A program made the translations under genes and the position numbers. From Desulfovibrio sp. DV (GTDB lineage: Bacteria > Desulfobacterota > Desulfovibrionia > Desulfovibrionales > Desulfovibrionaceae), in assembly GCF_001936595.1 (NCBI RefSeq), contig NZ_MLBG01000029.1, positions 1 through 41,254 of the forward strand: DNA of 41,254 bases, written 5' to 3'. A model generated the notes under the pieces. It saw nothing but the letters and a program-made list of their open reading frames with translations. It ran no database searches and was not told the DNA's origin. Below, piece after piece: positions 1 through 7,977 of this stretch; positions within the stretch are counted from its first letter, which is position 1; every line of letters begins with the position of its first letter.

Positions 1-746
1 TTCTGCAGCAGGCGCTCCTGGGTGGCCCGGTCAAAATAGATCATGACGTTGCGGCAGAAAATGGTGTCGAGAGGTTCCGGGAAAGCGAACGAATCCATGA
101 AGTTGAGACGGCGAAAATCAATGATGCTGCGGATGTCCGGGGCCACGCGCACCAGTCGCTTGGCCTTGTCCTTGCTGCGCAGAAAATAGCGGCGCTTGAG
201 ATCCATGGACATCTTGGCCAGCCGTTCTTCGGGATAAACAGCGTTTTTGGCCATGGACAGCACCCGGGTGGAGATATCGGTGGCCATGACGCTGAAGCGG
301 AACCCCGGCGAGCGGGCAGCGAACTCCGACAATACAATGCAAAGGGTATAGGGCTCCTCGCCGGTGGAACAGCCGGCGCTCCACAGCCGGAAGGGGCGTC
401 CCGGGCCGTTCTGGCTGCGCCAAAGCGGCAGCGTCTGCTCGGTCATGATTTCGAAGTGGCGCGGTTCCCGGAAAAACTCCGTCGTATTGGTGGTGATGAC
501 GTCAATAAGGTGGACAAGTTCCTCTTCCAGTCCTTCGGGACTAAACAGGTACTCGTAATAGTCGCGATACCCGGCCTTGCCGAGCACTCGCAGACGTTTC
601 TGCAACCGCGCTTCGACCATGACCTTTTTCGAGGACGGCAGTTTGATGCCGACCTCGGTATGAATAAATTCACTTAACCGCTTGAATTCCTTGTCGCTCA
701 TGGCGACGAGCCCGGACGTCCGGCCGGCAGTGACAGTCGCCGTCAT
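1..746 (-). CDS. cheR: CheR chemotaxis methyltransferase (3' end cut by window)
   Basis: S-adenosylmethionine-dependent methyltransferase that methylates glutamates on chemoreceptors for adaptation. Translating the minus strand gives the CheR N-terminal helical domain, then NTTEFFREP, the SAM-binding WSAGCSTGEEPYTL, ATDIS, and CRNVMIYF, all family hallmarks in the expected order. The frame is open to the window edge, so the C-terminus is missing. I chose ATG at 746, five bases after the cheW stop; ATG at 701 (MSDKEF) is an alternative that would begin nearer the conserved domain. It is the last visible gene of a minus-strand operon after the MCP-like gene, cheA and cheW. Identity is firm; the start is less so. 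Confidence 0.93.
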   Translation of the reverse strand, partial: MTATVTAGRTSGLVAMSDKEFKRLSEFIHTEVGIKLPSSKKVMVEARLQKRLRVLGKAGYRDYYEYLFSPEGLEEELVHLIDVITTNTTEFFREPRHFEIMTEQTLPLWRSQNGPGRPFRLWSAGCSTGEEPYTLCIVLSEFAARSPGFRFSVMATDISTRVLSMAKNAVYPEERLAKMSMDLKRRYFLRSKDKAKRLVRVAPDIRSIIDFRRLNFMDSFAFPEPLDTIFCRNVMIYFDRATQERLLQ

Positions 747-751
747 GGAAC

Positions 752-1264
752 TCAAGCCTCCCCGACATCCGGGCCGGCCTCTCCCAGGGCCTGGGCCAGG
801 CCGGCCAGTTCCATGGAGGTAAAGACCTTGCCGATGTCCAGAATGATGATGAACTGTTCGCCGGACTGGCCCATGCCCCGGATGAACTCGGACCGGATGG
901 GTGTTCCCATGCGCGGCGGCGGCTCGATCTGGCCGGTCTCCATCTCGTAGACTTCCTGTACCGAATCGGCCAGGGCTCCCAGCACCGTGTCTTCGCCGTC
1001 CAGGGCCACCTCGACGATGATGATGCAGGTGTCGACGGTGCGCTGGGTGGCCCCCAGGCCGAACTTCATCTTGAGGTCCACCACCGGCACGGCCCGCCCG
1101 CGCAGGTTGATCACGCCGCGGATGTAATCCGGGGTGCGGGGGACCCGGGTGATGTTGACGAGTTCGAGGACTTCACGCACCGAGGCGATATCCAGGGCGA
1201 ACAGTTCGCGTTCCAGGGTGAAGGTCAGGTACTGGTTGTCGTTGGTGGTTGCGGCCTCGGCCAT
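752..1264 (-). CDS. cheW: CheW chemotaxis coupling protein
   Basis: Scaffold that links chemoreceptors to the CheA kinase in the cytoplasm. The 170-residue protein is a single CheW domain: a start such as YLTFTLERELFALDIASVREVLEL, then RVPRTPDYIRGVINLRGRAVPVVDL, is the typical CheW beta-barrel sequence. Length matches the family. I chose ATG at 1264 (MAEAATTN) because a GGGAGGAAG ribosome-binding site lies just upstream; an upstream in-frame ATG at 1324 would add 20 untypical residues. Its stop is five bases before the chosen cheR start, so translation of the two is probably coupled. It lies about 345 bases downstream of cheA, with two palindromic repeats in between. Confidence 0.95.
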   Translation of the reverse strand: MAEAATTNDNQYLTFTLERELFALDIASVREVLELVNITRVPRTPDYIRGVINLRGRAVPVVDLKMKFGLGATQRTVDTCIIIVEVALDGEDTVLGALADSVQEVYEMETGQIEPPPRMGTPIRSEFIRGMGQSGEQFIIILDIGKVFTSMELAGLAQALGEAGPDVGEA

Positions 1265-1380
1265 ATCTTCCTCCCGCCCTCGCGGTGTTGCCCAAATTAG
1301 CGGACGCGATTGCGTCCGTTTCATGCAGTTTCGCCTGCTCTGCCAGCGAACCCAAACAACCCGTCAAAAATTTTCCCTTT

Positions 1381-1610: not shown

Positions 1611-3725
1611 CTAGCGCAGGCCGTCGGTTTCGGCGACCCGCCGCACCAGGGCGGGCACGTCCACGATCAGGGCCATGGTGCCGTCGCCCCGGATGGTGGC
1701 CCCGGAAAATTCCTCGACATCGCGGTACAACCTGCCCAGGCTTTTGATCACGGTCTGGTGTTCACCCACCACCCGGTCCACGGCGATGCCGATGCGTTCG
1801 CCATCGACCTTGGCCACCACAATGGGTTCGATGGCCGGGGCGTCGCCGCCAAGGCCGAAGACGTCGCGCAACCGCATCACCGGCACCACTTCGCCGCGCA
1901 TATTGACTATGCGCCGCTCGGCACCGTCGGCCTGCCGGGCCATTTCCACGCATTCCTCGACCAAACCCAGCGGGACGACATAGTATTCCCCGGCCACCTG
2001 CACCTGCAGGCCGTCGATGATGGCCAGGGTCAGGGGCAGACGGACGGTGATGGCCGTCCCCTGGCCGGGGTCGGAGTCGATTTCCACGCTGCCGCGCAGG
2101 GCGTCGATGGCCCGTTTGACCACGTCCATGCCGACGCCCCGGCCGGAAATGCTGGTGACGGCCTTGGCAGTGGAGAATCCGGGCTGAAAAATGAGATGGT
2201 ACAGTTCCTTGGCGGTCAGGTCCGCTCCTGGCGCGATGAGCCCGCGCTGTTCGGCCTTGGTGCGGATGCCGGCCGCGTCGAGGCCGCCGCCGTCGTCGGC
2301 AACGGTAATGAGCACCTCTCCGCCGGCGTGGGCGGCGGAGAGGCTGATACGACCGATGGGGGGCTTGCCGGCGGCCTGTCGAACCTCTGGGTTCTCGATG
2401 CCGTGATCAATGCTGTTGCGCAGCAGATGGACAAGGGGATCGCCCAACCGCTCGATGACGGTTTTGTCGAGTTCGGTCTCCTCGCCGCTGGTGACAAGCT
2501 CGATCTCCTTGCCGAGTTCGCCGGAAAGATCGCGGACCAGACGGCGGAATTTGGTGAAGGTGGCCCCGATGGGCAACATGCGGATGGACAGGGTGGAATC
2601 GCGCAGGCTGTCGCTTAAGCGTTCCAGGTGCTCGGCCAGGCTGCGCAAAGCCGGGTCGCCCCGCTCGTCCACGGCCTGCCGGATCTGGGCCTGGACAATG
2701 ACCAGTTCGCCCACGAGGTCGACGAGAAAATCGAGCTTGTCGGCGGGCACCCGGATGCTGGAGGTCTTTTCCAGGCGTTCAGGTTGCGCCTTCTGGCCAA
2801 GAGTGCGCACAGCGGACTGCTCGGCCAGGGCCGAAGCCACCTGGGTCGGATGCACCAGTCCCTGGTCGGTTAAAATATCGCCCAGCCGTTTCTGGGAAGA
2901 CAGGGCCGCCTCAAGATCCTCAGGCGTAATGTCGCCGCGTTCGACCAGGATCTGGCCCAGGAGCTTGTGGGCCTGCTCCCCGTCTTCGGCGCAGCTGTCG
3001 TCGAGAATGTCGATGATCAGTTCACAGTCGTCCTCGGCAAAGACGAAGACGTCGGAAACCTCCTGGCGGCTGGCAGTGGTTCGCAGCACGCAGTCCCACC
3101 ACACGGGGCAGGATTCCGGATCCAGGACGTCGAGGGCCGGCAGGGCTTCGGTGTGGAGGAAAAGCCGGCAATCACCCAGGGCGCAGAGATCCTCAAGCAG
3201 ATGCAGGGGATTGTTGCCTGTGGCCAGCATGTCGGCATGGGGCTTGATGCGCAGCCGGTAGATCAGCGGCTGGCAGCCCCTGCGTTCCTCGGGCGGGTGG
3301 CCTTCCCGGGGGGCTTCGGGAAGCGAAGGGGCCGCGTCCTCCCCGGCAAACTGGTGGAAACCATCAAGGATGGTGCGCCCTTGGGTCGCCAGGATGGCAT
3401 CCTGGTCCAGGCCGGGTTCGAGCAAGGCCCGGATGTGGTCGCAGGCATGAAAGGAAAGATCGAGCAATTGGCGGTTGACGCCGAGCTGGCCGTTTCTCAC
3501 CCGGTCAAAGACGGTCTCGACATCGTGGGTAAACGCCGCGATATCGTCGAAACCGAACATGGCCCCGGACCCTTTGATGGTGTGCATGGCCCGGAAAATC
3601 TTGTGCAGCAGATCGGTGTCGTCAGGGGTTGTTTCCAACTCCAAAAGCGAGGCCTCAAGGTCGGCCAAAAGCTCCCGGGCCTCTTCCAGATAGGCCAGGC
3701 GGTGGGCGTCGTCCTGGGACATCAT
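1611..3725 (-). CDS. cheA: CheA chemotaxis histidine kinase with MshE-N-like insert
   Basis: Histidine kinase that phosphorylates CheY in response to receptor state. Order of parts in 704 residues: HPt (P1) domain with the phosphorylated His48 in AMHTIKGSG; a less conserved region to about 250; a duplicated LGxxL...GxxxxxxLxxAL segment at about 255-303; dimerisation helices (KLDFLVDLVGELVIVQAQI) from about 330; the ATPase domain with N-box LVHLLRNSIDHGIE and GRGVGMDVVK; and a C-terminal CheW-like P5 domain. All catalytic elements are present. The gene follows the MCP-like gene by 39 bases. The 255-303 segment resembles the GspE/MshE N-terminal domain, some members of which bind cyclic di-GMP; whether this copy binds it is unknown. 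Confidence 0.96.
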   Translation of the reverse strand: MMSQDDAHRLAYLEEARELLADLEASLLELETTPDDTDLLHKIFRAMHTIKGSGAMFGFDDIAAFTHDVETVFDRVRNGQLGVNRQLLDLSFHACDHIRALLEPGLDQDAILATQGRTILDGFHQFAGEDAAPSLPEAPREGHPPEERRGCQPLIYRLRIKPHADMLATGNNPLHLLEDLCALGDCRLFLHTEALPALDVLDPESCPVWWDCVLRTTASRQEVSDVFVFAEDDCELIIDILDDSCAEDGEQAHKLLGQILVERGDITPEDLEAALSSQKRLGDILTDQGLVHPTQVASALAEQSAVRTLGQKAQPERLEKTSSIRVPADKLDFLVDLVGELVIVQAQIRQAVDERGDPALRSLAEHLERLSDSLRDSTLSIRMLPIGATFTKFRRLVRDLSGELGKEIELVTSGEETELDKTVIERLGDPLVHLLRNSIDHGIENPEVRQAAGKPPIGRISLSAAHAGGEVLITVADDGGGLDAAGIRTKAEQRGLIAPGADLTAKELYHLIFQPGFSTAKAVTSISGRGVGMDVVKRAIDALRGSVEIDSDPGQGTAITVRLPLTLAIIDGLQVQVAGEYYVVPLGLVEECVEMARQADGAERRIVNMRGEVVPVMRLRDVFGLGGDAPAIEPIVVAKVDGERIGIAVDRVVGEHQTVIKSLGRLYRDVEEFSGATIRGDGTMALIVDVPALVRRVAETDGLR

Positions 3726-3764
3726 CGTGTGTCTGGCTCCTGTGCACCCTGCGGCGCCATGGCC

Positions 3765-5564
3765 CTAAAACAGCTCCACGTTGTCACCGAATTCGGTTGG
3801 TTCCTGGGCAATGGCCTTGGTCTTGGACGGTGCGGTCAGTTTCGCCCGGGATTGGCCAAAGGCCGCCTCGTGCACATTCCGCTCGGCTTCCATGGTATAG
3901 CGGTCATAGAGCTGGCGCAGCCGGCTGCTTCGCCCCTTGCCGCCGCTTGGCACAAGCTTTCGGGCCGCTGCGATCTGTTCGTCCAGGGACCGGCGGATAC
4001 CCGAAAGACTGCGGCTGATCTCCCGGTCAAAGTTGATGCTGCGGGCCAGTTCATCGGCCCGAGCGCCCCAGGTGCGGCTTGAGCTGCTCAGGGACGCGAA
4101 CAACTCCTGGCATTGCTTGACGGCCCCGCTGGTGTCGGCCAGAACCGTATCGAGCTCCCCGACGATCCGCCACGCTTCGGATTGATCGTTATACCGGCCG
4201 GCATTATCCTGCAACCCCTTTGAAGCACTGGCAATGTCTCCAAGGATGCGGGCAACGGCATCGGTCTGGCGGCGGGCATCACCCGACAGACGCTGGATGG
4301 CCAGGGCCAAAACGCCCAAGGCTGCCCCGGCCTCGCCGGTGTGCGCGGCCTTGATGCTGGCATTGATGGCAATGAGTTCGATTTCCGTCCCCACTTCCTC
4401 AATGGCTTCGATGGCCCCGCCCATACCGGCAATGGTGTCGGCCACGGAGTCCATGATATTGCCCAGGGCCTCGCCTTCGGCTGCGAAATCGCCAAGCTCG
4501 GATTTTACCGTGACCACGCCGGCCTCAAGCCTGGCCAGAGGCGTATCGGAGGAGCCCACGCCGGCAATGCCGCCAATGGCTTCGCCGATGCCGCGGATGC
4601 GTCCGGCAAGAGAGGCCAGGGAGTTGCGCAGGGTATCGGCGGCCTCGATGAAATGGTCGTCCGCACTGCCGATTTGGGAGGTCTGCAGGGTGAGCACGTC
4701 GGCCACGAAGGCCACCAGTTCAAGCAGTGCCGCAACATCGGCTTCGTCGGTGGCCTCGGCATCGAGCATTGCGGCCGTCTCGGCCAGGGCATGCTCGGCA
4801 TGTTCGATCTGCTGGCGGACGATGTCATGGGACTGCATCGAGCGTACGGCTTGTCCGATGTCCACGGCGATGTCTTCGGCGCTGCGGGACAGTTCCAGGG
4901 AAACCCCGCTGGAACAGGAGGCCATATCGCCAAGGGCCACGATATTGGCTGCAAGCTGGCGGATAATGACCTCGTGGCATTGCTCCTGGGTATCGAGAAT
5001 CGCCAGGTTGCGCTCTCTGGCCGACTGGACATGGCCGCGCAAGGTCTCAATGCGCCCGGCGATGCCGGCGCAGTGTTCGACGATCTGATGGGCCAGCTTT
5101 TCCACATCGTCGGCCAGGGTGGTAAATCCCCGGCCGTCATTGCCGAGACGGGCGCTTTCGATGCGGGTGGCGATCCCGAGAATGCTCAAATATTTGACGA
5201 TTTTCGAGAAGGCCGAAAGAATGTCGGAGAGTTCATCCACGATCCGGACCACGCCGTCGATTTCCTTGAGGCTCTGACGGCCAGCGGCCCTGGCTGTTTC
5301 GTCCGTAAGCGCTTCGAGCTCTTCCGAAAGGGCGCTGAGGGTGGTGTGCATGGCCTGGCCCGAGGTGCAGGTCACCAGGGACTGGGCAGTGCGGGAGATG
5401 TCCTCGCAACTGTTCTGCAAGGCGTAGAGATCTTCGCCCAGGGATAAAAAATCCTGTTCACGGGCTTTGATGACCCCGGTCAGGCCGTTTTCACTGCCGC
5501 CAAGGGCCCTGCGGCATTGCCGCAACAGGTCGCGGGCGAAGGCTAACTGGGTCGAATCGGCCAT
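3765..5564 (-). CDS. Soluble double-tip MCP-like protein with CheZ-like DxxxQ motif
   Basis: 599-residue, mainly helical protein with no membrane segment or signal peptide, first gene of the cheA-cheW-cheR operon. Two stretches resemble MCP signalling tips: around 130-158 (LGIATRIESARLGNDGRGF followed by ADDVEKLA) and around 398-428 (IAINASIKAAHTGEAG). Neither is a perfect match to the canonical [16 protein letters not shown] tip. Between them, HDIVRQQIEHA (D247, Q251) has the DxxxQ spacing of the CheZ phosphatase active site. The C-terminus EFGDNVELF is a short acidic/hydrophobic tail of the kind that can dock CheY. Start ATG at 5564 follows GAGG; an in-frame ATG at 5582 is possible. A role as cytoplasmic receptor or CheY phosphatase is inference; being chemotaxis-related is well supported by context. 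Confidence 0.75.
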   Translation of the reverse strand: MADSTQLAFARDLLRQCRRALGGSENGLTGVIKAREQDFLSLGEDLYALQNSCEDISRTAQSLVTCTSGQAMHTTLSALSEELEALTDETARAAGRQSLKEIDGVVRIVDELSDILSAFSKIVKYLSILGIATRIESARLGNDGRGFTTLADDVEKLAHQIVEHCAGIAGRIETLRGHVQSARERNLAILDTQEQCHEVIIRQLAANIVALGDMASCSSGVSLELSRSAEDIAVDIGQAVRSMQSHDIVRQQIEHAEHALAETAAMLDAEATDEADVAALLELVAFVADVLTLQTSQIGSADDHFIEAADTLRNSLASLAGRIRGIGEAIGGIAGVGSSDTPLARLEAGVVTVKSELGDFAAEGEALGNIMDSVADTIAGMGGAIEAIEEVGTEIELIAINASIKAAHTGEAGAALGVLALAIQRLSGDARRQTDAVARILGDIASASKGLQDNAGRYNDQSEAWRIVGELDTVLADTSGAVKQCQELFASLSSSSRTWGARADELARSINFDREISRSLSGIRRSLDEQIAAARKLVPSGGKGRSSRLRQLYDRYTMEAERNVHEAAFGQSRAKLTAPSKTKAIAQEPTEFGDNVELF

Positions 5565-5800
5565 TGTCCTCACCCCCGCCATTTATTCTTCGACAACGCA
5601 TTGCCAAGCGCCCGGACAGTGGCGCATTTTATGGACATCGTACGGCCCGGGTATCTGAGCCATGGGCCAAATTACATGTTTTCCTGAAAAGATCAAAGCG
5701 TTCCTGCCCCTACAAAAGCTGCCAGCCAGGAGATCACGTTCAAAGCAGCCGTGTCGCGTTTGGAACAAACACGCGGCCTTGGCAACGCCCCTGCAGGGGG

Positions 5801-5843
5801 CATGCCTCGGGAAGGCAAAGGGCAGCGGCTTTTGGAAACGCAC
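5801..5843 (+). repeat. Dispersed palindromic repeat, degenerate copy 3
   Basis: GGCAAAGGGCAGCGGCTTTTGG plus the flanks GCCTCGGGA and AAACGCAC align with the reverse complement of copies 1 and 2 with several mismatches. The surrounding 5565-6046 gap contains no convincing gene. A near-palindromic AAAAAGG/CC-type run at about 5963-5981 could terminate dedA transcription on the minus strand, but the evidence is weak. Confidence 0.5.
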
Positions 5844-6046
5844 TTTTATTTCGAGTGTTGCGGGCGAACGAGGGGTGGTGGGCCATGGCTTCGCGCGCGA
5901 GGCGGGACCAGAAAAATCCGTATTTTTGCAAAAGCCCCACACGAGTCGTATGTCGTCTGTTCTAAAAAGGGCCTTTTTTAGGAATAACATTATGATTCTA
6001 GGATATTATCTTTGCTGTCCGCATGAACAATTTTGAGAGCGCGGCA

Positions 6047-6628
6047 CTAGCGGGAGCGGCGCATGGCCTTTCGCAGCCACAGGCCCAGGGCCACCAGGGC
6101 CGCCAGACCGAGAATGGCCAGTTCGACATGGTGCACATTATCAATAAGTTTGGTCAGGACGTTTTCCAGCAGACTGCCGAAGCCGTAGCCGATAAGGGTA
6201 AAGGCCACGGCCCAGATGCCGGCACCAATAGCGTTTAAAACGAAGAACTTGAGTATGGAGATATCAGCCGTGCCCAAAACAAAGGGCGTGAGATTGCGCA
6301 GGCCGTAAAAAAATCGAAAACTCAGGATCAGGACCTCATGGTATTTCTTGAGCATGGCGTGGACCCGGTCGGCCCGGTTGCGCCATTTCTCGCTGCGGGC
6401 CACGAGCCTGCGGCCGTAATGGCGGCCGATGAAAAAGGCCGTCTGATCCCCGGCCAGGCTGCCGCAGAAGGCCACCAGGATGACCAGGCGCACATCAAGG
6501 TTAAAGGCCGGAGACTGGGCCGCAAACCCGGCCAGCAGCAAAATGGTCTCGCCTTCCAGGAACGTGCCGATGAAAAGCGCCAGATAGCCGTACTGGGCGA
6601 TAAGTTCCTTCATGAATTCAATGGACAT
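6047..6628 (-). CDS. DedA/SNARE-associated family membrane protein
   Basis: Integral inner-membrane protein of the DedA (SNARE-assoc/VTT) family. Members affect membrane lipid balance, and some flip undecaprenyl phosphate or phosphatidylethanolamine; which substrate applies here cannot be told. Hallmarks: FIGTFLEGETILLLAGF near the N-terminus, GSLAGDQTAFFIGRHYGRR, and FFYGLRNLTPFVLG followed by FFVLNAIGAGIWAV. About 193 residues with several hydrophobic segments and a basic tail (LRKAMRRSR), normal for the family. I chose ATG at 6628 (MSIEFMKEL); the in-frame start at 6676 adds a basic, unlike-family leader. It stands alone and is divergent from the histidine kinase. Confidence 0.9.
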   Translation of the reverse strand: MSIEFMKELIAQYGYLALFIGTFLEGETILLLAGFAAQSPAFNLDVRLVILVAFCGSLAGDQTAFFIGRHYGRRLVARSEKWRNRADRVHAMLKKYHEVLILSFRFFYGLRNLTPFVLGTADISILKFFVLNAIGAGIWAVAFTLIGYGFGSLLENVLTKLIDNVHHVELAILGLAALVALGLWLRKAMRRSR

Positions 6629-6786
6629 ATACCCTGCCCTCATCCAGGCTCCACAGCTTCGGGAGCGTCGTTTCAATCCGGCGAGAAGTATGCGGTTCCC
6701 AGGCGTCTGTCCACAGGCTTCTTAAAAATTCGTCAACCTGGCCACAGGACACCCGGCGCGTCTTGAAAAGCACCTGCGACTCTGTC

Positions 6787-7977
6787 ATGTATGCCCATCA
6801 CCATGCACCGAAGTCGATCATGACCCACATAAGCGACCTGATCGCTCAAAACGTCGTCGAAAGTCTGCCGGTGGGCTTGCTCATCGTGGACCATACCGGC
6901 GCTTTTGCCACGGTCAATCCGGCGGCCGCCGCCATCCTGGGCTATCCCCGGGAACAGTTGCTTGGCCGGGGATGGGGCGAACTGTTTTTCGAAAACGACG
7001 CCAATGCCCGGTTCAATCAGATCGTCATGGACGTGATTCAAAACGAACTCGTCGGGCTTTGCCGGGTGGTGCCCTATGCCGCACCGAGTGGTGCACTCTT
7101 TGAATTGTCCATCACCAGTTCCTATCTGTCCGGCGACAGCAACTCCGCCGGGGTCGTGGTCATTTTGCACGACATCACCGAACTGTCCCGGATGCAGCGC
7201 CGCGAGACGGAAATCCTCAAGGAAATAAACAATATTCAACGGGAAAAGATCAGGGGCCTCAACAAGCTCGCCGCTTCGGTGGCCCACCAGATCCGCAATC
7301 CCGCCTTTGCCATCGGCGGCTTCGCCACCCGCCTGTCGCGCCAGATCGAAAGCCTGGGCATCGCCTCGCAGTATCCCGGCATCATTCTCGATGAAGCCAG
7401 ACGTCTGGAAACCATTGTGCGCACCGTGGCCCGATTTGCCTCGCTTGGCCCCTTGCGCCTGGAGCCGACCACCCTGCCCGTAGTCGCTGCCGATGCCCGC
7501 AGCCGGGTGCAAGCCACGGCCACGGCCCTGGGGCGCGGCGTCACCTGGCATCTCGACGCCGTCCCCGACGTGCCTCTGGTGGCCGATGGCAGCCTGCTGG
7601 CCGCCGCCCTGGCCGAACTGTTTCGCAACAGTCTGGAGTTTGCCGCTCGCGACTCCCTGGTCATAGGCCTGAGTGCCGCCGTGGTCGGGGAACGCCTGGA
7701 AATTGCCGTCACCGACGACGGTCCCGGCATCGCCCCGGCTGACGCCCCGCACATTTTCGATCCGTTTTATTCCTCGCGCTCCGACGGCTGCGGCGTGGGC
7801 CTGACGCTGGCCCAGGAAATCCTGCTGGAGCACAACGGCCAGATCGCCCTGGACCGGGCCTACGCTCCCGGGGCCCGGTTCACCCTGTCCCTGCCCCGCT
7901 TCCCGAGCCATCTCATGTCCCGGCTTGAGGACACACCCGCCCGGCAGCCCGCGCCGGCTGTGCTCGGGGTGGGATGA
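6787..7977 (+). CDS. PAS-domain sensor histidine kinase, soluble
   Basis: Two-component sensor kinase. With the ATG at 6787 it has 396 residues: a PAS domain at about 20-135 (SLPVGLLIVDHTGAFATVNPA ... VVILHDITELSR), a short coiled linker, a HisKA-type region with the phosphorylated His167 in ASVAHQIRNPAF, and an ATPase domain with LFRNSLEFA (N-box), DDGPGIAP (G1) and GCGVGLTLAQEIL (G2). No membrane segment is evident, so it should sense an internal signal. No response regulator is adjacent; the next genes are cheD and an HDOD gene, suggesting a signalling link. The start is uncertain: TTG 6763 and ATG 6820 are in frame and no clear ribosome-binding site decides. Confidence 0.88.
   Translation: MYAHHHAPKSIMTHISDLIAQNVVESLPVGLLIVDHTGAFATVNPAAAAILGYPREQLLGRGWGELFFENDANARFNQIVMDVIQNELVGLCRVVPYAAPSGALFELSITSSYLSGDSNSAGVVVILHDITELSRMQRRETEILKEINNIQREKIRGLNKLAASVAHQIRNPAFAIGGFATRLSRQIESLGIASQYPGIILDEARRLETIVRTVARFASLGPLRLEPTTLPVVAADARSRVQATATALGRGVTWHLDAVPDVPLVADGSLLAAALAELFRNSLEFAARDSLVIGLSAAVVGERLEIAVTDDGPGIAPADAPHIFDPFYSSRSDGCGVGLTLAQEILLEHNGQIALDRAYAPGARFTLSLPRFPSHLMSRLEDTPARQPAPAVLGVG

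Follow-up and report, generated by a model that had tools for sequence, protein, structure and literature searches.

A double-tip chemoreceptor-like protein of Desulfovibrio sp. DV with a conserved candidate CheZ-like site

Analysis of a 41,254-nucleotide stretch of Desulfovibrio sp. DV DNA (hereafter the window, meaning the whole stretch) suggests that the gene at positions 3765–5564 on the minus strand encodes a soluble, double-tip chemoreceptor-like protein of 599 aa, which would act as a receptor or adaptor with a built-in, CheZ-like site for removing the phosphoryl group of CheY-P. Judging from the sequence comparisons described below, we assign this reading a probability of about one half. 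CheZ is the enzyme that switches off the CheY signal; in its catalysis a Gln positions the water for phosphoryl removal while an Asp orients CheY. The textbook scheme of chemotaxis assigns the driving of the kinase to receptors and the ending of the signal to another protein. Here a CheZ-like site is located on a receptor, and therefore one protein may both help to start the signal and help to end it; if this is true, a receptor with a termination site would couple the two events in one molecule. The receptor module is well conserved and new to the literature that we searched (neither this receptor family nor any MCP bearing a CheZ-like site was recognised in the open-licence PMC full-text literature), and termination of CheY-P signalling in the manner of CheZ appears to be its most likely role, at roughly even odds.

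The open frame anticipated at these positions is borne out by our analysis, with 599 aa on the minus strand, and its product is recognized by Pfam, although an alternative start, 18 bases further out at 5582, is possible. Its position ahead of cheA, cheW and cheR also holds, as all four genes are on the minus strand with the receptor-like gene first. The gap between this gene and cheA (1611–3725, minus strand; Pfam families Hpt, H-kinase_dim, HATPase_c and CheW) is only ~40 bases. The cheW gene (752–1324, minus strand) encodes a protein of 190 aa with a single CheW domain by Pfam, and cheR (3–755, minus strand) is incomplete and runs off the edge of the window. Six named loci which are 62–76% identical to the window gene are located on contigs of Solidesulfovibrio or Desulfovibrio, and a tblastn search of the window protein against plasmids matched nothing.

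Pfam identifies MCPsignal (PF00015) in two stretches of the window protein (E 2.9e-15, 57 bits against a cut-off of 34.6), and this is the only family that scores above its cut-off. The two tip-like stretches of the original prediction (about 130–158 and 398–428) were found at residues about 127–159 and 394–427. Tip 1 (residues 127–159, SILGIATRIESARLGNDGRGFTTLADDVEKLAH; 5088–5186, minus strand), marked by many invariant alignment columns and by Pfam, belongs to hairpin 1 (residues 2–270; 4755–5561, minus strand), whereas tip 2 (residues 394–427, EIELIAINASIKAAHTGEAGAALGVLALAIQRLS; 4284–4385, minus strand), located from alignments, belongs to hairpin 2 (residues 277–537; 3954–4736, minus strand), which is assigned from Pfam and the AlphaFold2 model. 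A comparison by eye with the single-tip relatives described below, whose tips are canonical, shows that tip 1 keeps the canonical E and R but not the Asn, while tip 2 keeps the Asn and has K/R and mostly H in place of the canonical E and R. The AlphaFold2 model, built with 32 orthologues, is almost entirely helical (mean pLDDT 78.8, pTM 0.53), and the tail from residue 571 on has a pLDDT below 50. Residues 34–247 of the model can be superposed on the soluble receptor 3g67 with 212 of 213 residues aligned (rmsd 2.1, Z 9.5), and therefore hairpin 1 is considered to be an MCP-type hairpin with the fold of the MCP cytoplasmic domain. Since helical models reach a Z of ~9.5 easily, this assignment rests mainly on the sequence match. 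A fold search with the whole model is dominated by unrelated long-helix proteins, and CheZ (1kmi) is absent among the matches listed, which excludes nothing. In agreement with the claim that the protein is free of membrane segments, no membrane helix is apparent in it; the highest 19-residue Kyte-Doolittle mean is 1.9, for residues 275–293, which adjoin the loop between the hairpins.

The candidate CheZ-like site, H246-D-I-V-R-Q-Q252 with D247 and Q251 (4809–4829, minus strand), is singled out by its conservation, its register with CheZ and the helix face that it occupies. The HDIVRQQ stretch with Asp-x-x-x-Gln spacing was indeed found between the two tips, at residues 246–252. We rejected the spacing alone as evidence because its count is at chance level: D-x-x-x-Q occurs four times in the window protein against 1.9 times in shuffles, and 86% of the shuffles contain at least one. 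Every one of the 32 aligned rows has both D247 and Q251, whereas the other three DxxxQ spacings are kept in 5, 1 and 12 of the 32. In this alignment, which holds 32 of 34 distinct sequences (L024 and L050 were omitted because they nearly duplicate L023), only 3 of the 40 Asp and 6 of the 28 Gln residues of the window protein are invariant. Across the phylum, DxxRQ is present in all 63 family rows; these represent 61 genes, as L085 and L086 are second entries for L031 and L030, two exact duplicates (L051 and L052) having been dropped earlier. The conservation of D247 and Q251, on which the original prediction had made its proposal depend, thus extends to every family row examined. Alignment of 35 diverse modules (29 from double-tip proteins, namely 27 distant ones, the window gene and L029, and six from single-tip proteins picked by the motif) leaves only four invariant columns, equivalent to Q244, D247, R250 and Q251. 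Unlike the D and the Q, H246 and Q252 vary in distant family members, and the window protein has a Ser at position 245, where most relatives have Phe.

Profile comparison brings this site into register with that of CheZ. The CheZ of this genome, of which 1kmi is a solved relative, contains LSFQDLTGQRIKRI and has VDDLLAQLGLD at its C-terminal end. Our CheZ alignment contains 21 of 30 CheZ sequences of relatives, near copies being left out. With the 32 close orthologues the match to CheZ is weak (P 0.018, 2.6%), although the two sites are exactly in register; the C-terminal arm of hairpin 1 alone reaches P 0.003 (10.5%, score 25.5), against a score of 18.0 for the C-terminal arm of hairpin 2. 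When the 35 diverse modules are aligned by hhalign with the 21 CheZ sequences, the match improves to P 1e-6 (91%) over 49 columns, with D placed on D and Q on Q. Removal of the six motif-chosen single-tip rows changes this to P 8.2e-5; masking of the D and Q columns likewise gives P 8.2e-5 with the register unchanged, and masking of the whole motif gives P 0.0016 in a different register. The score of the real module (44.1) can be compared with 60 column shuffles (mean 12.6, maximum 19.8), the reversed module (18.5), the module cut ahead of the motif (19.5) and the N-terminal arms (19.4 and 17.4). Only the C-terminal arm of hairpin 2 comes near, with 38.6, because the six single-tip rows bring their own motif into the hairpin-2 region; its score is 21.7 without them.

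With an ungapped CheZ matrix, the highest-ranking position coincides with the motif in 61 of 63 family rows (script count) and in each of the six single-tip proteins, together 67 of 69. L110 is counted as a miss, its top site being its own QTQDATRQ, and so is the window protein itself, in which residue 372 ranks first and residue 247 second. The best matrix score among 18 ordinary MCPs of this genome, 7.5, is exceeded by only 26 of the 63 family rows. The family as a whole therefore resembles CheZ clearly, and the window protein only faintly. By the Pfam gathering score the window protein is outside the CheZ family, with no match to PF04344 at E up to 1. Among 30 full-length relatives (24 double-tip and six single-tip, L111–L113 being left out), Pfam CheZ matches ten at E up to 1, the best at 9.1e-5, which makes it the third commonest of 177 families; generic coiled-coil families likewise match many of the 30. 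Wherever scores were printed, the matches located at the family motif are all below the cut-off, and of three single-tip proteins compared with PF04344, two score 19.6 and 17.8 bits against a cut-off of 30.7 and one has no match. The same search also gives sub-cut-off matches in B. subtilis, Caulobacter and T. maritima (E up to 0.1). A search of PDB sequences with the module profile returned, besides MCPs, mostly coiled coils and designed bundles, with CheZ absent among the best 60 of 126. From the register and conservation of the site, we infer that the window protein may work like CheZ.

The orientation of the site on its helix is also comparable to that in CheZ. Measured from the hydrophobic core, D247 lies at 101–126 degrees and Q251 at 144–166 degrees, the corresponding values for CheZ being 89–116 and 140–156 degrees with the same sign; D, Q and six conserved neighbours were excluded from the direction, and several window sizes and two periods were used. 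By hydrophobic periodicity, as distinct from model coordinates, D247 and Q251 thus share a side of the helix that faces away from the core, in answer to the check suggested with the original prediction. These angles bear on the possibility that the conserved segment is purely structural, for example as the surface through which the base of hairpin 1 packs against hairpin 2 or against the other subunit of the dimer. The site does lie close to where hairpin 1 ends, with about 20 residues between it and the inter-hairpin loop. However, the invariant D247, Q251 and E254 point away from the hydrophobic core by the same periodicity, and single-tip receptors, which have no second hairpin, carry the same motif, so that we regard a purely structural role as unlikely.

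It might also be argued that the site is a remodelled methylation helix in which Q251 and Q252 form a deamidation/methylation pair for CheR/CheB. The operon contains cheR, and phmmer alignments to Tsr chains put RQQ at VEE/VEQ, where the C-terminal methylation helix of Tsr has its E-E pair, a methylation site. However, relatives have Q, K or R as the second member of the pair whereas D247 and R250 are invariant, and the strict methylation consensus is absent from the window protein, where two loose matches are located elsewhere. A standard methylation site was rejected because of this missing consensus and variable second residue, and a remodelled one seems to us quite unlikely.

The other parts of the module are towards the C-terminal end. 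The tail GDNVELF (residues 593–599; 3768–3788, minus strand), located in the part of the model with a pLDDT below 50, had been described as acidic and similar to a CheY-docking peptide. Its presence and strong conservation stand, the last five residues being NVELF in 49, NVDLF in 6, NIELF in 3, NVEFF in 3 and DVELF in 2 of the 63 rows. The tail does, however, differ from the VDDLLxQLG of CheZ: a C-terminal helix of the CheZ type (VDDLLxxLG) is found in 0 of 63 rows, all of which end in NVELF or a close variant. A DNA pattern for DNVELF followed by a stop occurs 15 times in 13 of 247 genomes, and the reversed control gave none; all six of these loci that were tested with the profile match the family, including L122, which is the single-tip gene of L154, and the other nine coincide with coordinates of family genes. 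Ahead of the tail there is an almost invariant element, Y556-T-M-E-A-E-R562 (3879–3899, minus strand; YTMxxER in 61 of 63 rows), which has a counterpart in six single-tip relatives; the linker from this element to the last five residues is 23 to 124 residues long (median 32, 63 rows). Because the tail is unlike the CheY-binding tail of CheZ, we infer docking only from the analogous position in CheZ, by which GDNVELF may dock CheY.

The tail could alternatively be an NWETF-like pentapeptide that binds CheR/CheB, in which case the protein would be a plain adaptation-competent receptor. NVELF and NWETF share their N, E and F, and a cheR is present in the operon. However, the C-terminal pentapeptide criterion xZxxZ, with Z being F, W or Y, as given in passages of PMC7390727, is found in none of the 63 rows. 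Passages of PMC2577667 name six residues with which CheR contacts the peptide; the CheR of the operon keeps R187 and R197 and has Q182, G188, G190 and G194 replaced (by alignment, with numbering by our own counting). GDNVELF as a CheR pentapeptide was rejected on these two grounds, xZxxZ and the four altered contacts out of six, and we consider the corresponding reading of the protein very improbable.

The gene neighbourhood in relatives is that of a chemotaxis cluster. In 15 of 18 fetched regions the family gene is followed by cheA, and in 14 of 18 a CheY-like gene is seen by eye beside the family gene. For the latter count the downstream space was inspected in 15 regions, of which L132 is the exception; L138, L145 and L146 were left out because their gap to cheA is only 3 to 64 bases, similar to that in the window. 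Unlike most of the relatives' clusters, the window cluster has no neighbouring cheY. The nearest relative in this genome of the CheY of a relative's cluster is 87% identical and is on contig C22. This contig (G000:C22, L182, about 2014–7748) carries a second che set consisting, by eye, of cheW, an MCP gene, cheA, a STAS-like gene and cheY. Small STAS-like genes also adjoin cheY in many of the relatives' clusters (L129–L144), recalling rhizobial CheS; when two such neighbours were compared with Pfam STAS_2, one was over the cut-off and one under.

The lack of a cheZ gene in the window had been taken to support a phosphatase role. This argument fails and was rejected, as the genome has a cheZ on DNA outside the window (PF04344, 50.7 bits); there are also four CheX matches elsewhere in this genome, three of them over the cut-off. 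CheZ scores over the cut-off in 42 of 59 relatives. In the survey of the phylum, which covered 34 genomes, CheZ is over the cut-off in 14; of the family-bearing genomes tested, 12 of 29 have CheZ over the cut-off and 17 of 29 do not. The family is thus no simple replacement of CheZ; for lineages without CheZ, such as those of the 17 genomes, it would offer a candidate CheY phosphatase. Four genomes contain CheZ frames of 507–562 aa (L178, G318:C5:100266-101579; L179, G380:C221; L180, G405:C125; L181, G445:C97), in which an insert of some 210–250 residues separates the two parts of the Pfam match. This insert was considered as an MCP tip and rejected, since no tip can be seen by eye.

The true CheZ in this genome and in 12 of the 29 family-bearing genomes is in keeping with a different role, in which the site and the tail would bind CheY-P, CheA or CheR without catalysis and the protein would be a scaffold, sink or localiser. 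The tail unlike that of CheZ fits such binding, as does Arg250, which stands where CheZ has a Gly before the Gln, and dual roles do exist, as CheT is described in passages of PMC12654446 as acting on CheY and binding CheR. However, the D and the Q are invariant at both catalytic positions while H246 and Q252 vary in distant members, and we give non-catalytic binding a low but real probability. The proposal of a combined receptor/adaptor with a CheZ-like function is thus strengthened by conservation, register, helix face and operon context, and is left without the likeness of the tail and the argument from an absent cheZ.

At E 1e-20, matches to the receptor family are present in 46 of the 149 genomes examined from the same taxonomic family; across the phylum, at 1e-40, the count is 32 of 297 genomes. 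Both counts include the genome of the window. The DNA pattern QF[HQ]DIxRQ has 16 matches in 13 of 118 genomes, and none in the reversed control. Frames at 14 of these 16 loci (all except L148 and L158) comprise seven double-tip proteins, six single-tip MCPs and one short frame unlike the family. All six single-tip MCPs (L147, L149, L151, L153, L154 and L160) carry, after a canonical tip, a three-part module of QFQDIxRQ, Y[TV]M..[EQ]R and a tail of the IELF, NVVLF or NVELF type. Unlike the window protein they have one hairpin only; N-terminal hydrophobic segments are clear in L151, L153 and L154 and marginal in the other three. When they are aligned to the double-tip proteins, the single-tip motif is placed within hairpin 2. 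The corresponding stretch of most double-tip proteins is degenerate (xxVH- or xxFH-like) and lacks D...Q. In the window protein this counterpart, located by the single-tip alignment, is at residues 509–524 (SINFDREISRSLSGIR; 3993–4040, minus strand), also without D...Q. A tandem duplication of a single-tip receptor with the same module, followed by a division of labour, is the probable origin of the double-tip form; hairpin 1 would have retained the D/Q site and hairpin 2 the tip that is nearer to canonical at the Asn. It is possible, though we hold it to be somewhat less than an even chance, that single- and double-tip proteins form a class of receptor-phosphatases in which a CheZ-like centre replaces the C-terminal methylation helix and is combined with a docking tail. 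The state of the receptor could then directly control termination of the signal, and CheZ might be a tip-less descendant or cousin. Such a class would provide a testable link between the helical hairpins of MCPs and of CheZ.

For the receptor/adaptor with a CheZ-like phosphatase site, the following mechanism can be envisaged. The chain, with its two MCP hairpins and flexible tail, would be a cytoplasmic receptor or adaptor, which one or both tips may hold in the CheA-CheW array. In each subunit, D247, Q251 and the invariant Arg250 would be displayed at the hairpin-1 base on the outside of the helical bundle, and the tethered tail would recruit a partner, most likely CheY-P. As in CheZ, Q251 could position the water for phosphoryl removal while D247 orients CheY, and the signal would be ended at the same array that makes it.

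Among known systems, DosM is the double-signalling-domain receptor of F9 arrays, and F9 clusters carry a triple CheW, as described in passages of PMC7534058 and PMC9321776. DosM and the window protein are alike in having two signalling domains per chain; the passages of these two papers make no mention of a DxxxQ site in DosM. In contrast to the triple CheW of F9, the cheW of the window cluster, which was read as far as cheR at the window edge, is single-domain (190 aa), and membership of the DosM/F9 group was rejected because of this one CheW domain.

CheT of Sinorhizobium and Agrobacterium, according to passages of PMC12654446, contains DXXXQ, has a CheZ-like predicted fold, dephosphorylates one CheY and also binds CheR, and its rhizobial che cluster encodes the STAS-only protein CheS. 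In those passages CheT is not described as a receptor and MCP tips are not mentioned; its comparison with the window family is by description only. The STAS-like and cheY neighbours in the relatives' clusters are a suggestive parallel to this CheS/CheT arrangement.

CheZ itself is made of a four-helix bundle, a linker and a C-terminal helix, as described in passages of PMC7750401. The window family differs from it in having full MCP tips and two hairpins per chain and in scoring below the Pfam cut-off. The two are the same in having DxxxQ on a long helical hairpin, with F[QH]D[LI]xxQ in register and on the same helix face, and in both the site is followed by a linker and then a conserved C-terminal segment.
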